A DNA stretch of 64,000 bases from an uncultured Peptococcaceae bacterium (GTDB lineage: Bacteria; Bacillota; Dehalobacteriia; UBA4068; UBA4997). The notes under the pieces were generated by a model. The model searched no databases, was not told where the DNA came from, and worked only from the letters and a program-made list of their open reading frames with translations. Below, one piece after another: positions 48,333 through 54,289 of this stretch. The stretch spans positions 120,963-184,962 of the forward strand of contig CANQPG010000001.1 of NCBI GenBank assembly GCA_947625705.1, written 5' to 3'. A program made the translations under genes and the position numbers. The first letter of the stretch is position 1, and each line of letters begins with the position of its first letter.

Positions 48333-48719
48333 ATGAAGAAATTTATCAGCCTGATGGCAGCCTGCCTGTTGATACTGGGCTGCTTGGCCGGCTGCGGCAA
48401 CGACAGCAACAGCGGCACTAAGGGTACCGGCACCAGCACCGGCATGGGCACGGACGGCATGAACGCCACCAACACCGGCGTGGATTATTACGGCGACAGC
48501 TATGACACCAACGACGGCTTCGGCGACAACACCGGTATGAGCGGCAACGGTATCACCACCGGCTTTGGCGGCAGCCAGATCGGCCACACCAACACCGGCC
48601 GGCTGACCAGTGAGCCCTCCCGCAACGACGGCATGGACGGCACCAACGGCGGCGACTACCAGAACAGCGGCGTTATCGGCGCCGGCAGCAGCAGCTCCCG
48701 CATTACGGCGGATATGTAA
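48333..48719 (+). CDS. low-complexity lipoprotein
   Basis: The 128-residue protein has a lipoprotein signal peptide (KKFISLMAACLLILGCLAGC, lipobox LAGC). The mature chain of about 105 residues consists mostly of Gly, Thr, Asn, Ser and Asp with short imperfect repeats such as GTGTSTGMGTDGM. There is no recognisable domain, and no positively charged residue until the last third. After lipidation by Lgt it would be tethered outside the membrane, probably as a disordered surface chain. CGGAGG precedes the ATG. Family unknown. Confidence 0.7.
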   Translation: MKKFISLMAACLLILGCLAGCGNDSNSGTKGTGTSTGMGTDGMNATNTGVDYYGDSYDTNDGFGDNTGMSGNGITTGFGGSQIGHTNTGRLTSEPSRNDGMDGTNGGDYQNSGVIGAGSSSSRITADM

Positions 48720-49288: not shown

Positions 49289-50970
49289 CAATAGTCGCCC
49301 CCTTCCAGCACCATTTCGGAAAGCGATTTGCCGGGCGCCACCATCGGCATCACGTCCTCCAGCTCGTCCACCATGACCTCGATCACGACCGGCCCCGGGA
49401 TAGCCGCCGCTTTGGCCAGAGCGGGCGCCAGATCCTCCGGCTGCTCCACCGTGATACCCGCGCAGCCCATCGCCTCGCCCAGCTTGGCAAAGCTCATTTT
49501 AAACTCATGCTTGGAGGCCGACATGCGGTGGCCGAAGAACATACGCTGCCATTGCCGCACCATGCCCAAGCCCCGGTTGTTCAGCACCAGCGCTTTTACG
49601 GGCAGGTTTTCCTCGGCGAGGGTGGCCATCTCCTGGCAGTTCATCATAATGCTGCCGTCGCTGGAGACCAGCCAGACGGGCTTATCGTCCGCCGCCAGCG
49701 CCGCGCCCATCGCGGCGGGCAGGCCAAAGCCCATGGTGCCGAGGCCGCCGCTGGTCAGGAACGTGCGCGGCTCCTTAAACGTCATATACTGCGCCGTCCA
49801 CATCTGGTGCTGGCCGACGTCGGTGGCAATGACCGCCTCGCCCTTGGTCAGCTCGTTCAGCGCCTCGATCACGGCTTCCGGTTTAATTACCTTATCGGAT
49901 TTTGTGTAGCTCATCGGGTGCTCCGCTTTCCATTTGCGGCAGCTTTCGTGCCATTCGTCCAGGTTTCCGGTCTCGGCGCCCTGCAAAAGCGAGAGCGACC
50001 ATTGCAGATCGCCGGCCAGGCGGTAATCCACCCGCACGTTTTTGTTGAATTCCGCCGGGTCAATATCCAAATGCACCACGCGCGCCCCGGCCGCAAACGT
50101 ATTCAGCGTGCCGGTCACGCGGTCGTCAAAGCGCACGCCCAGGCCAAGCAAAAGGTCGGCGTGCTGCACCGCCATGTTGGCCGCATAGCTGCCGTGCATA
50201 CCCAGCATGCCCAAATGCAGCGGGTCATCGGTGGGGAAAGCCGTCAGCCCCATCAGGCTGGCCACCACGGGTATCTGCGTGTGCTGCACAAACTGCCGCA
50301 GCAGCCCGGACGCACCGGAAAGCACCACGCCGCCGCCCACAAACAGCACCGGGCTGTGGCTGCGATTGATCACGTCAAGAATAGCCTGCAAATCGGCGGT
50401 GCTGCCCTCCCGCTTTGGCTTATAGCTCCAATTCAGGCTGTCCAGATCGGTGGAATAATCAAACTCCGCCTCCTCCAACAGAATATCTTTCGGGATATCC
50501 ACCACCACCGGGCCGGGGCGGCCGGTGCGCGCGATGTAAAACGCCTTTTTCAGCGTCAGCGCCAGCTCACCCGTGTCCTGCACCAGAAAATTATGCTTGG
50601 TGATCGGCGTGGTCACGCCCATGATGTCCGCTTCCTGGAAGCTGTCTTTGCCGATGGAAGCGCGGGGCACCTGGCAGGTTATGCAGACCAGCGGAATGGA
50701 ATCCATGTTGGCCGTGGCAATACCCGTCACCAAATTCGTCGCCCCGGGGCCGCTGGTGGAAATGCAGACGCCCACCTTGCCGCTGCGTCTGGCATAACCG
50801 TCCGCCGCGTGTACCGCGCCCTGCTCGTGGCGCGTCAAAACGTGGCGCAGCCCGCTGTCATAAATCGCATCATAAAGCGGCAGAGCCTGGCCGCCCGGAT
50901 AACCGAAAATCGTCTCGATCCCCTCAGCCTTGATGGCCTCCACCACCATTTTTGCACCGCTTAATCGCAT
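49288..50970 (-). CDS. ilvB: acetolactate synthase large (catalytic) subunit
   Basis: The 560-residue thiamine diphosphate and FAD enzyme condenses two pyruvates, or pyruvate with 2-oxobutyrate, to start branched-chain amino-acid synthesis. The catalytic Glu lies in TRHEQGAVHAADGYAR near 47, the anabolic-type CISTSGPGATNLVTGIA follows near 74, and the TPP motif SSDGSIMMN is near 440. The ribosome site AAAGGAGG lies inside the end of the SCIFF maturase gene, whose last ten bases overlap ilvB, so both genes share a transcript. Confidence 0.95.
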   Translation of the reverse strand: MRLSGAKMVVEAIKAEGIETIFGYPGGQALPLYDAIYDSGLRHVLTRHEQGAVHAADGYARRSGKVGVCISTSGPGATNLVTGIATANMDSIPLVCITCQVPRASIGKDSFQEADIMGVTTPITKHNFLVQDTGELALTLKKAFYIARTGRPGPVVVDIPKDILLEEAEFDYSTDLDSLNWSYKPKREGSTADLQAILDVINRSHSPVLFVGGGVVLSGASGLLRQFVQHTQIPVVASLMGLTAFPTDDPLHLGMLGMHGSYAANMAVQHADLLLGLGVRFDDRVTGTLNTFAAGARVVHLDIDPAEFNKNVRVDYRLAGDLQWSLSLLQGAETGNLDEWHESCRKWKAEHPMSYTKSDKVIKPEAVIEALNELTKGEAVIATDVGQHQMWTAQYMTFKEPRTFLTSGGLGTMGFGLPAAMGAALAADDKPVWLVSSDGSIMMNCQEMATLAEENLPVKALVLNNRGLGMVRQWQRMFFGHRMSASKHEFKMSFAKLGEAMGCAGITVEQPEDLAPALAKAAAIPGPVVIEVMVDELEDVMPMVAPGKSLSEMVLEGGDY

Positions 50971-52325
50971 ATCGCCGCCTCCTTTTGTTTAACCGCCAGC
51001 CAAATGGCACATTCCAGTCTCATTCGGCTGATTTGGCAGCCCATTTCATAGGGCTGCATGATATCGTGATGGAAAAGATCCGCGTTGGCATGGCAGCCGC
51101 CGCTGCAGAAGAACCGCGCCCAGCAGCCGCGGCAGCTCTCCTTATTATAAACGTGCGCGCTGCGGAACTTATCCACGATTGCCTTAGATTTCGGCCAAAC
51201 GCCCTCGTCCACCGTGCCCAGCTTATATTCCTCCCGCCCGACGAACTGATGGCAGGGATAAAGATCGCCCTCCGGCGTCACCACCATATACTCATAGCCC
51301 GCGCCGCAGCCCGTCAGCCGCTTGGGCAGGCACGGCCCGTGCGTCAGATCCAGCTTGAAGTGGAAGAAGTCAAACGGCTCCCCCGCCTCGCGCCGCTGTT
51401 GGAAAAGTTTGGCCAGCTTCCAGTATTCCTCCTGCAAGCCCGGCAGGTCTTCCTCATGCAGCTTGCGGGGGCCGTCCAGCTCCACCGCCGGCTCCATGGA
51501 GAGCCGCGGGAAGCCCAGCTCCAGCCAGTGCTTGATATCCTCGCAGAAATCCTTGTTGTAGGCCGTGTAGGTGCCGCGCACGATGGCGTTGCCGCGCTTG
51601 TTATGCGCCAGGAAGTATTTGATGTTCTTCGTCACCACGTCATAGCTGCCCGCGCCGTTCGGGAACACGCGCTGGCGGTCATGCACCTCCGGGCGGCCGT
51701 CGTGGCTCAGCACCACGCTGATGTTGTTGTCCTCCGCCCAGGCGGATATCTCCGGCGTCAGCCCCACGCAGTTGGTGGTAAACGTAAAGCGGAACGTTTT
51801 GCCGTATTCCTTTTCGCGCTCGCGGCCATACTCCACCAGCTGCTTCACCACTTTGATGTTTAAGAGCGGTTCGCCGCCGAAGAAGTCAACCTCCAGAAAT
51901 TTGCGGTTGCCGCTGTGTTCCAGCACATAATCCAGCGCTTTGGCGCCCACCTCAAAGCTCATCATGCTGCGTTTGCCGCCGAAGCTGCCGGTGGACGCAA
52001 AACAATAGCGGCAGCGCAGGTCGCAGTCATGGCAGATGTTCAAACACAGCGATTTCAGCACCGGGGCGGGCGGTATGTATTTGCCGAGGTAGGCGTCCTC
52101 GCTGAACAAAACGCCCTGCTCCTTTAATTCCAGCAGCTCCGCCGCAATTTCAGCTTCCGCGGGCGAAAGCTCCGCCCCCGCCGCGATCTTATCCAGACAT
52201 TTGGCCGTGTCCGCGTCGATCCGCATAACGGAGCCGCTGTTCACGTCCAGCAGCAGCCAGCCGTCCGGAACATCGAACCAGTGCAGCTTCTGCGCCTCCG
52301 CCGGCGCAATATTGATCATTTTCAT
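50961..52325 (-). CDS. scfB: SCIFF radical SAM maturase
   Basis: The 454-residue radical SAM/SPASM enzyme forms Cys-to-Thr thioether links in the SCIFF peptide. The SAM cluster motif is C101-DLR-C105-RY-C108. The C-terminal SPASM part holds the auxiliary-cluster cysteines (TGCGAGYEY, LYPCHQF, CRGCWARFFCSGGCHAN, MGCQIS). The N-terminal HWFDVPDGWLLLDVNSG segment resembles a peptide-binding RRE-like start. The substrate gene lies 86 bases upstream. A TTG at 52337 with GAGGG before it is an alternative start. It overlaps ilvB by ten bases. SCIFF systems are nearly universal in Clostridia, but their role is unknown. Confidence 0.93.
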   Translation of the reverse strand: MKMINIAPAEAQKLHWFDVPDGWLLLDVNSGSVMRIDADTAKCLDKIAAGAELSPAEAEIAAELLELKEQGVLFSEDAYLGKYIPPAPVLKSLCLNICHDCDLRCRYCFASTGSFGGKRSMMSFEVGAKALDYVLEHSGNRKFLEVDFFGGEPLLNIKVVKQLVEYGREREKEYGKTFRFTFTTNCVGLTPEISAWAEDNNISVVLSHDGRPEVHDRQRVFPNGAGSYDVVTKNIKYFLAHNKRGNAIVRGTYTAYNKDFCEDIKHWLELGFPRLSMEPAVELDGPRKLHEEDLPGLQEEYWKLAKLFQQRREAGEPFDFFHFKLDLTHGPCLPKRLTGCGAGYEYMVVTPEGDLYPCHQFVGREEYKLGTVDEGVWPKSKAIVDKFRSAHVYNKESCRGCWARFFCSGGCHANADLFHHDIMQPYEMGCQISRMRLECAIWLAVKQKEAAICD

Positions 52326-52373
52326 AACACTTTCCAAGAATATCCCTCAAATCCGCTTAAGAATAAACCAAAC

Positions 52374-52395
52374 GGAGGCGCCGCCAAGCGCCCCC
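52374..52395 (-). terminator. hairpin between SCIFF peptide and maturase genes
   Basis: GGAGGCGC and GCGCCCCC form the arms (one G-U-type mismatch); on the minus strand GTTTGGTTTATT follows. It may be a partial terminator that makes the peptide more abundant than its enzyme. Confidence 0.5.
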
Positions 52396-52411
52396 GCTGA
52401 TTCTGCAAAAC

Positions 52412-52552
52412 TTATTTTTCGCAGGCCTGATTGCCTACCGTGCAAGAGGTTTTGCAAGCAGACTGGCAGGAGCTTTGGCAGTTGCCGCAGCCGCCGGTTT
52501 TGGCGCTCTCCTGTAACTTACCCTTAAAGACGACCTGTACATGCTTAGTCAT
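52412..52552 (-). CDS. scfA: SCIFF precursor peptide
   Basis: The 46-residue peptide has a leader starting MTKHVQVVFKGKLQESAKTGG and a core with six cysteines at 22, 25, 29, 33, 37 and 44. This is exactly the six-cysteines-in-forty-five pattern. Thr35 and Thr38 lie between core cysteines and are candidate thioether partners, as shown for related peptides. GGGGGAGAGTTA precedes ATG 52552. The gene is too short for many gene finders. Its maturase follows directly. The mature product, export and function are unknown. Confidence 0.93.
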   Translation of the reverse strand: MTKHVQVVFKGKLQESAKTGGCGNCQSSCQSACKTSCTVGNQACEK

Positions 52553-52637
52553 TAACTCTCCCCCTCTGCCGCGCACATTCGCGGCGAATTTTTTGCCAAA
52601 GCCGCCGCCTTTGGCGGTAGCTTCCTGAATAGAACAA

Positions 52638-52666
52638 TTATAGCACATATTTAGTGCTGCGGCAAG
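52638..52666 (-). promoter_or_regulatory. scfA promoter with palindrome in the spacer
   Basis: On the minus strand TTGCCG (52661-52666) and TATAAT (52638-52643) are 17 bases apart. The spacer holds the palindrome AGCAC-ATATTTA-GTGCT (52643-52659), well placed to be an operator. Confidence 0.65.
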
Positions 52667-52768
52667 AAATTTCTTTGTAAATTCGGCGTTTTAAGCAAAC
52701 TTGGCCGCACCCGCCGCCCTGCCGCCGCATAACCTGTACTATAAACCAAAAACAAGGAGGGCTATCAA

Positions 52769-53062
52769 ATGGCCTGTTGTAATAATTGCTCCAATAATAC
52801 TTTCAATACCCGTAACAATTCCTGCGGCTGCGGCTGCAATCGCAATACCCGCTCCGGCAGCTGCAACAACAACAGCTGCGATTTTGGCGGCCTCGGCATT
52901 TTCGGGCGGCGCTTCCCGCTGGGCGGCGTAACGCGCTTTGGCTGCGGCTGTAACGGCGGCGTCGGTTTCCCCAGCTTCTTCAATAATGGCTTTGGCTTCG
53001 GCTTCCGCAATAACTGCGGCTGCGGCTGTAACAGAAGCTGCGGCTGCGGCTGCGACGACTGA
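52769..53062 (+). CDS. cysteine-, asparagine- and glycine-rich small protein
   Basis: The 97-residue protein has 16 cysteines, many in CGCGC runs (near 19, 57, 83 and 91), separated by Asn/Gly/Phe-rich stretches. It has no signal peptide and no membrane span. AAGGAGGGCTATCAA before the ATG is strong. It is the first of three rightward genes divergent from scfA. I do not recognise the family. Clostridial spore-coat or exosporium proteins can be cysteine-rich in this way, and an unusual RiPP substrate or metal-binding protein is also possible; none is proven. Confidence 0.65.
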   Translation: MACCNNCSNNTFNTRNNSCGCGCNRNTRSGSCNNNSCDFGGLGIFGRRFPLGGVTRFGCGCNGGVGFPSFFNNGFGFGFRNNCGCGCNRSCGCGCDD

Positions 53063-53104
53063 ATATTAAATGGCCGGGCGCCTAAATAAACTCAGGTGTC
53101 AAAC

Positions 53105-53150
53105 ACGGCGGGCGGGAAAAGCCCAGGTTTTTTGCACCACCCGCCGCTGT
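53105..53150 (+). terminator. hairpin region after the first cysteine-rich gene
   Basis: GGCGGGCGGG and CCCGCCGC can pair across about 25 bases and are followed by TGTTTTTC. A smaller GGGC/GCCC hairpin followed by TTTTTT lies inside, so two stop structures overlap. Confidence 0.55.
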
Positions 53151-53195
53151 TTTTCATAAATATAAATATCAAAACTTAAAAGGAGGTCATCATCT

Positions 53196-53444
53196 ATGCT
53201 TTCCAATTCTATCTTCGGCACCTGCGGCTGCAACAGCTGCAACAATGGCACCTGCGGCTGCAATAACGGCTGCGGCTGTGGCTGCGGCAACAACAATGGG
53301 GTTTTGGGCGCCAGCACCGGCAACAACCTCGGCAGCTCCGCTTTCTGCTTTGTCGGCGAGTGGGTAAACATCGTCGTTACCCTGACTGTGCTGCAAAGTA
53401 TCCTCGGTTTGGTCTGCAACTGGAACTGCGGCTGCAACAACTAA
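53196..53444 (+). CDS. cysteine-rich small protein with a hydrophobic segment
   Basis: The 82-residue protein has 12 cysteines. The N-terminal half is a Cys/Gly/Asn repeat (TCGCNSCNNGTCGCNNGCGCGCG); the second half contains a hydrophobic stretch (VGEWVNIVVTLTVLQSILGLV, about 53-73) and ends CNWNCGCNN. AAAGGAGG stands before the ATG. The shared CGCGC signature and adjacent position make it a sister of the gene upstream. Family not recognised; an assembled, disulfide-bonded or metal-bound surface layer is one possibility. Confidence 0.65.
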   Translation: MLSNSIFGTCGCNSCNNGTCGCNNGCGCGCGNNNGVLGASTGNNLGSSAFCFVGEWVNIVVTLTVLQSILGLVCNWNCGCNN

Positions 53445-53489
53445 ACCGCCCTAAGCCAGACGTTTTAAAGCTCTTAAGCAAGCCACGCG

Positions 53490-53518
53490 GGGCGGCCGGT
53501 GCTTTCCGGCCGCCCTTT
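53490..53518 (+). terminator. terminator after the second cysteine-rich gene
   Basis: GGGCGGCCGG and CCGGCCGCCC are perfect ten-base arms with a six-base loop, followed by TTT. AGCCA and TGGCT extend the stem outside. Confidence 0.75.
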
Positions 53519-53559
53519 GGCTGTAAACTCCGTTTTTGCGCAAAAAAGGAGGTTTTTTA

Positions 53560-54255
53560 ATGAATAAGCAAGATCTGATCGAGCGCCTGCTGGATTGCAG
53601 CCAAACGCTGCAAACCCTGGCCGAGCATTTGCAGGCCGCCGAGCCCGCCGCCCCGGCGGGTGACGCCGACGCTTCGGCTGATGACGCGGCCGTTGCCGCA
53701 GATGACGAGCCAACCCCGCCCGTTAATGCCGAAGTTTTGGCCGATGACGAGCCGGTTTCGGCAGAAACGGCAGAAGCCGCCGCGCCCGCCAAAGCCGAGC
53801 CGCCGAAAAACGTCAACCCGCTGGCAAAGCTGCTCTCCGGTTTCAATCCGCCCAATTTAAATCTGCCGGGCGGCGGCAATCCCATGCAGCTGCTGAATAT
53901 GTTCGGCGGCGGGCTCCCCGGCATACCCGGCGGCAATCTTCCCGGCACTCTGGCCGAGCTGCACGATAACCCGCAGCTGATGAGTATGATCAATCAGGTG
54001 GCCGCCAACCCGCAGAGCCTTTCGATGATCGCGTCGCTGACCGGGCAGGATCCGCAGCACCTGCAAGCCATGCTGCAAAGTCTCGCCCCGGCTGCGGCTG
54101 CTCCGGTAGTGGAGACTGCCGCCCCGGCGGCGGAAGCTGCCCCGGTCATCGCTACTGCGCCGACGCCCATGCCTGTTCCTTCCGCCACCGCTCATTTGGA
54201 CAGCTTACTGGCGGAATGGCATTGGCAGCCCTATGCCCGGGTATGGCAAAGCTAA
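53560..54255 (+). CDS. Ala/Pro-rich protein of unknown function
   Basis: The 231-residue protein has three parts. It opens with a short helical segment (NKQDLIERLLDCSQTLQTLAEHL, 1-25), followed by a low-complexity Ala/Asp/Glu/Pro region (26-85). A central Gly/Asn/Leu/Met-rich part follows (NPLAKLLSGFNPPN, LPGGGNPMQLLNMFGGGLPG), with LMSMINQVAANPQSLSMIASLTG and LQAMLQSLAP helices. The end is WHWQPYARVWQS. AAAGGAGG precedes the ATG at 53560. No signal peptide or span is visible. Its position after two cysteine-rich genes suggests a shared structure, perhaps spore or surface related; unproven. Confidence 0.6.
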   Translation: MNKQDLIERLLDCSQTLQTLAEHLQAAEPAAPAGDADASADDAAVAADDEPTPPVNAEVLADDEPVSAETAEAAAPAKAEPPKNVNPLAKLLSGFNPPNLNLPGGGNPMQLLNMFGGGLPGIPGGNLPGTLAELHDNPQLMSMINQVAANPQSLSMIASLTGQDPQHLQAMLQSLAPAAAAPVVETAAPAAEAAPVIATAPTPMPVPSATAHLDSLLAEWHWQPYARVWQS

Positions 54256-54260
54256 AGACA

Positions 54261-54289
54261 AAAAATGGGCTGAACATCAGCCCATTTTT
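54261..54289. terminator. bidirectional terminator between the unknown gene and recF
   Basis: AAAAATGGGCTGA and TCAGCCCATTTTT pair perfectly around ACA. The right arm reaches the recF stop codon. Confidence 0.88.

Follow-up and report, generated by a model that had tools for sequence, protein, structure and literature searches.

A lineage-restricted gene trio of gut Peptococcaceae, with predicted sigma-K-type promoters, as a candidate spore-envelope set

In a 64,000-nucleotide stretch of DNA from an uncultured Peptococcaceae bacterium, here called the window, three consecutive plus-strand genes that we designate P1, P2 and P3 are likely, judging from their sequences and those of their relatives, to constitute a lineage-restricted spore-envelope gene set. 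P1 and P2 encode small proteins with a Cys content of 15–16% and each follows a sigma-K-like promoter, and P3 encodes an Ala/Pro-rich protein that is probably an accessory factor. The SCIFF operon on the opposite strand, which lies head-to-head with the trio, is apparently a separately controlled neighbour. The trio is carried by the genus of Ca. Avidehalobacter and by a sister genus, both of them Peptococcaceae of the gut that are known through metagenomes.

Genomes and locus

The window derives from a 1.60-Mb assembly (92% complete, 70 contigs). Homologues occupy the same place in nine genus members and in G009, a genome from a sister genus in the same family. Those relatives that have named records are metagenome-assembled genomes, where sporulation was read from genes. 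In the window, the genes for acetolactate synthase, ScfB and ScfA occupy the minus strand; the plus-strand genes P1, P2 and P3 follow, and then recF, again on the minus strand, beyond which lie dnaN-like and dnaA-like genes (as judged by sequence). Elsewhere in the window, positions 48333–48719 encode a protein of 128 residues that is rich in Gly, Asn and Thr, begins in a lipobox-like manner (LILGCLAGCG) and had no family match at cut-off.

Table 1. Features of the P1–P3 locus (positions are those of the window).
Feature	Position	Strand	Description and support
scfB	50961..52337	-	SCIFF radical SAM maturase; neighbour outside the set; TIGR03974 518 bits, cut-off 425
scfA	52412..52552	-	SCIFF ranthipeptide precursor; neighbour outside the set; Pfam SCIFF 77.9 bits, TIGR03973 74.2 bits
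scfA promoter	52637..52665	-	sigma-A-like TTGCCG-17-TATAAT with extended -10; equivalents readable in relatives
P1 promoter	52707..52745	+	sigma-K-like; GCACC 52707-52711, CATA 52728-52731, then invariant TGTACTATAAA; motif, conservation
P1	52769..53062	+	Cys/Asn/Gly-rich, LGIFGRRFPLGG motif (in most genus counterparts beside scfA); 97 aa, 16 Cys
P2 promoter	53134..53158	+	sigma-K-like; GCACC 53134-53138, CATA 53155-53158; motif, conservation
P2	53196..53444	+	Cys-rich, nearly invariant hydrophobic core EWVNIVVTLTVLQSILGLVCNWNCG; 82 aa, 12 Cys
P2–P3 hairpin	53490..53516	+	GC-rich, conserved, attenuator- or terminator-like; some compensatory changes
P3	53560..54255	+	Ala/Pro-rich, helical N-terminus, weak STI1/XPC-binding-like module, conserved C-terminus LDSLLAEWHWQPYARVW; 231 aa
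P3–recF terminator	54261..54289		bidirectional; strong

P1, P2 and P3 are genuine genes of a restricted lineage

Positions, lengths and Cys counts of the three genes, and the Ala/Pro-rich nature of P3, are as given in the initial annotation (Table 1), as are the strong ribosome sites claimed there, since one of the AGGAGG type precedes the start codon in all three. Relative to the 1.6% Cys of seven neighbouring genes, the excess in P1 and P2 corresponds to binomial P values of 3e-12 and 7e-9. P2 and P3 have homologues in G009 and in 9/9 genus genomes, and P1 counterparts occur in most genomes with the trio, G001 and G007 having none in the scfA–P2 interval. In these two genomes (regions L052 7481–8153 and L053 3704–4358), scfA and P2 are only ~170 bases apart. 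Synonymous changes far exceed non-synonymous ones, with pS at 0.38–0.82 against pN at 0–0.06 for the P2 core and dN/dS at 0.1–0.3 for P3, and this, together with homologues at the same place, identifies P1–P3 as real genes under purifying selection, as opposed to ORFs that arose by chance.

None of the three proteins had a family match at cut-off in Pfam or NCBIfam. Moreover, among the 33 remaining genomes of the class and ~390 more from the phylum, the P2 core found no credible match, so that within this sampling the trio is restricted to the lineage. Five extra matches returned by a phylum-wide P2-core profile (E 0.003–0.009), two of them with stop codons, were judged to be chance.

The N-terminus of P2 is Cys-rich and variable, and its hydrophobic core, (E/D)WVNIVVTLT(V/I)LQSILGLVCNWNCG, is nearly invariant. 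P1 is more variable than P2, its most recognisable piece being LGIFGRxxPLGG. In P3, the parts retained are the helix at the N-terminus, a helical stretch punctuated by NP and, at the C-terminus, LLxEWHWQPYAR, which G009 preserves less well; the middle of the protein is of low complexity. AlphaFold models of P3 and P2 have low confidence (mean pLDDT of 54 and 45 respectively), and only their local helices are usable.

P1 and P2 each follow a predicted mother-cell promoter

We found CAC-N17-CATA in all 18 regions upstream of P1 (eight) or P2 (ten), spanning two genera and situated 53–85 nt before the start codon, with the sequence around it mostly diverged between relatives. In the window, both promoters take the form GCACC-N16-CATA, and only P1 and P2, among 75 ORFs preceded by a ribosome site, have CACC-N16-CATA at promoter distance; at the relatives' loci, too, it occurs at that distance only at the P1 and P2 counterparts. 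A genome-wide search with GCACC-N16-CATA (the pattern CATAANNT leaves out P2 by its last base) returned 27 matches compared to 19 in the control, which makes most of them chance matches and the motif by itself unspecific. Among the 27, the downstream gene has a strong ribosome site only at P1 and P2. A genome-wide regulon defined from the motif alone was dropped, given this degeneracy.

The −10 elements of P1 and P2 agree with CATA but fall short of the complete sigma-K −10 element, CATANNNTA, and hence the choice between sigma-E and sigma-K for either promoter rests on the AC of the −35 element. In C. difficile, the −10 element is common to sigma-E and sigma-K promoters, which differ at −35 in having ATA and AC respectively (PMC3789822), and sigma-K promoters in B. 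subtilis combine a 5-nt −35 and a 10-nt −10 element with a gap of 14–16 (PMC517825). The elements upstream of P1 and P2 fit the published sigma-K spacing and core, and a mother-cell (sigma-E/sigma-K) promoter is predicted for both genes. Downstream of the P1 −10 element, TGTACTATAAA (52735–52745) is identical in 8/8 genomes from two genera; it exceeds what a sigma-K −10 element needs and may serve as a binding site for a regulator or as a signal for transcript start.

The gene dpaA, which is assigned to the sigma-K regulon of C. difficile (PMC3789822), served as a positive control and has ACC-N16-CATA at the P1/P2 distance in six of 11 genomes. The dpaA gene of the window genome is without the ACC element: its upstream region (L110, ~2400, minus strand) contains CATAGGATATAG and lacks an ACC at −35 distance, as do those of the closest relatives but not those of six other genomes, and dpaA promoter control may have shifted in this branch. 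The sigK upstream regions, also taken as a positive control, had nothing clearly in common beyond CATA.

P3 is probably expressed by readthrough

Each of the three genes had initially been credited with its own terminator. This holds for P3, which is followed by the bidirectional terminator, whereas P2 has only the hairpin, which in the window genome lacks a good T-run and sits just before the P3 ribosome site, and no terminator was recognised after P1. Nor was a promoter recognised for P3. With no visible promoter and a conserved hairpin between P2 and P3, the latter is probably made at a lower dose via readthrough, and the hairpin could set that dose.

Within P3, residues 131–176 (53950–54087) form NP-punctuated helices that make up a weak STI1/XPC-binding-like module. 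Weak matches to STI1/HOP DP (PF17830) and RAD23 XPC-binding (PF09280) domains occur in 5–6 of the 10 P3 homologues (best E 0.0024), and P3 itself scores under the curated cut-offs (15.1 bits vs 29.1; 13.7 vs 26.4). Searching with a PDB sequence profile for P3 yielded only weak RAD23 and designed repeat protein matches, and Foldseek with the P3 model nothing significant. P3 therefore resembles these domains in its NP-punctuated helical stretch but differs from them in its scores below cut-off and in having no fold match. Speculatively, the weak but repeated likeness suggests that P3 binds hydrophobic segments. We regard it as unlikely that P3 goes as far as being a dedicated bacterial STI1-like chaperone, holding the hydrophobic core of P2 soluble in the mother cell until its placement on the spore.

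Resemblance to known Cys-rich spore proteins

Sporulation genes of the window genome include those for Spo0A, SASP, the late mother-cell sigma factor sigma-K (308 bits, cut-off 298.65) and the coat basement protein SpoIVA (720 bits, cut-off 460), and the organism thus probably forms spores. Three features of the class of Cys-rich spore coat and exosporium proteins are found here: high Cys in small low-complexity proteins, sporulation genes in the genome and a mother-cell promoter motif. A spore-coat-like layer, one of the options raised in the initial annotation, is accordingly supported by the sigma-K-type promoters in two genera, the sporulation genes and the Cys/Asn/Gly-rich low-complexity composition of the proteins.

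In C. difficile, CdeC and CdeM (9% and 8.7% Cys) are sigma-K-dependent, monocistronic exosporium proteins that are limited to their lineage and have no conserved domains (PMC6101409). P1 and P2 are like them in high Cys, Asn/Gly-rich repeats, lack of a conserved domain, sigma-K promoters (predicted for P1 and P2) and few relatives, but are shorter, richer in Cys and without a family match, and P2 in addition has its invariant hydrophobic core. The same design, in unrelated sequences, recurs in CsxA of C. sporogenes and ExsY/CotY of Bacillus, Cys-rich proteins for which disulfide-linked arrays or robust envelopes have been proposed (PMC7333573), a design that P1 and P2 would share. Ordered lattices have been demonstrated for CsxA and ExsY/CotY, whereas for P1 and P2 an envelope role is predicted. 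No kinship of P1–P3 to CdeC/CdeM, CsxA or ExsY/CotY was detected in a comparison made via Pfam and NCBIfam profiles only. The P1–P3 families are new; their kind is already known. By analogy, we infer that P1 and P2 would be disulfide-cross-linked spore coat or exosporium proteins working like CdeC/CdeM, CsxA or ExsY/CotY.

Relation to the SCIFF operon and other readings of the locus

The initial identification of scfA and scfB is genuine by profile (TIGR03973, TIGR03974), and the trio lies head-to-head with scfA in 9/9 genomes of the genus (across contig breaks in G003 and G004, where the pieces agree), so that the adjacency to SCIFF is real and conserved at the genus level. This arrangement, and the fact that P1 and P2, like SCIFF products, are small and Cys-rich, would suit P1 and P2 as further substrates or partners of ScfB that receive thioether cross-links. 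Also in favour is the report that disruption of SCIFF-type ranthipeptide genes in C. beijerinckii strongly lowered sporulation gene expression (reviewed in PMC8102284), which makes an indirect relation between SCIFF and sporulation possible, though the trio looks to be outside the SCIFF operon. However, the synteny with scfAB proposed as a check, while holding in the nine genus genomes, fails in the sister genus: in G009 the trio lies at ~29.6–31 kb of contig C48 and scfB at 63.2 kb of the same contig, placing scfAB ~32 kb off, yet the trio is still flanked by murI and recF. The stable anchor of the trio is its recF side. Conversely, scfB is found in most relatives without the trio. (In one order-level relative, the scfB-like match, G010:C3:12629-13834, has one in-frame TAA.) Neither the SCIFF leader nor its six-Cys core (TIGR03973/PF13165) was found in P1 or P2, which gave no meaningful alignment to ScfA, and the promoter types differ, being of the sigma-A type for scfA and of the sigma-K type for P1 and P2. 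With no leader, a different promoter and synteny lost, P1 and P2 were rejected as SCIFF substrates, a role that we consider highly improbable, and the link to SCIFF that position had suggested is not borne out.

The initial annotation also raised a metal or redox store. Small proteins with CxC and CGC blocks could be metal- or thiol-storage proteins of a metallothionein-like kind, possibly loaded in the spore, but P2 counterparts contain between 9 and 20 Cys residues and those of P1 between 10 or so and 37, Cys positions are not conserved and the part of P2 that is conserved is hydrophobic. Variable number and position speak against a fixed metal site, and no metallothionein family match was found in Pfam or NCBIfam. 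We rejected a metallothionein identity because the Cys residues are not positionally conserved, and find a storage function quite improbable. The hydrophobic core of P2 bears on another reading, in which P1–P3 are expressed in sporulation but are non-structural, for instance small membrane or regulatory proteins of the mother cell with the core as a transmembrane helix: it is modelled as a single long helix with hydrophobicity sufficient to span a membrane, and all 10 P2 members have a weak, below-cut-off match to a family of transmembrane hairpins (best E 0.028). Nonetheless, the P2 model is of low confidence, and Cys/Asn/Gly-rich low-complexity stretches like those of P1 and P2 typify structural envelope proteins (PMC6101409, PMC7333573), leaving the non-structural reading with a low probability.

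A model for P1–P3 in the spore envelope, and its significance

In the spore-envelope reading that we favour, sigma-K RNA polymerase of the mother cell would, late in sporulation, transcribe P1 and P2 from their separate promoters, and P3 would probably be made from P2 transcripts that read through the conserved hairpin. No signal peptide is evident in P1–P3, and because of this we would place their synthesis in the mother-cell cytoplasm, with subsequent deposition on the forespore. There, the nearly invariant hydrophobic core of P2 may pack or anchor the subunit and the variable Cys/Asn/Gly blocks of P1 and P2 may become the disulfide cross-links of a tough outer layer, as the analogy to CdeC/CdeM, CsxA and ExsY/CotY suggests. 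P3 might then, more speculatively, act as an accessory scaffold or chaperone.

The outer layers of spores consist of fast-changing Cys-rich proteins that are difficult to trace by homology across lineages, and this locus shows that promoter footprinting can flag such proteins where homology searches fail. Setting the trio apart from the SCIFF system, moreover, avoids a false functional link based on position. If P3 did prove to be a chaperone, the locus would unite subunits and their chaperone in one self-contained kit, for a spore layer so far unseen outside this lineage. For the genus of Ca. Avidehalobacter and its sister genus, the locus provides a concrete and testable set of candidate spore-layer genes.
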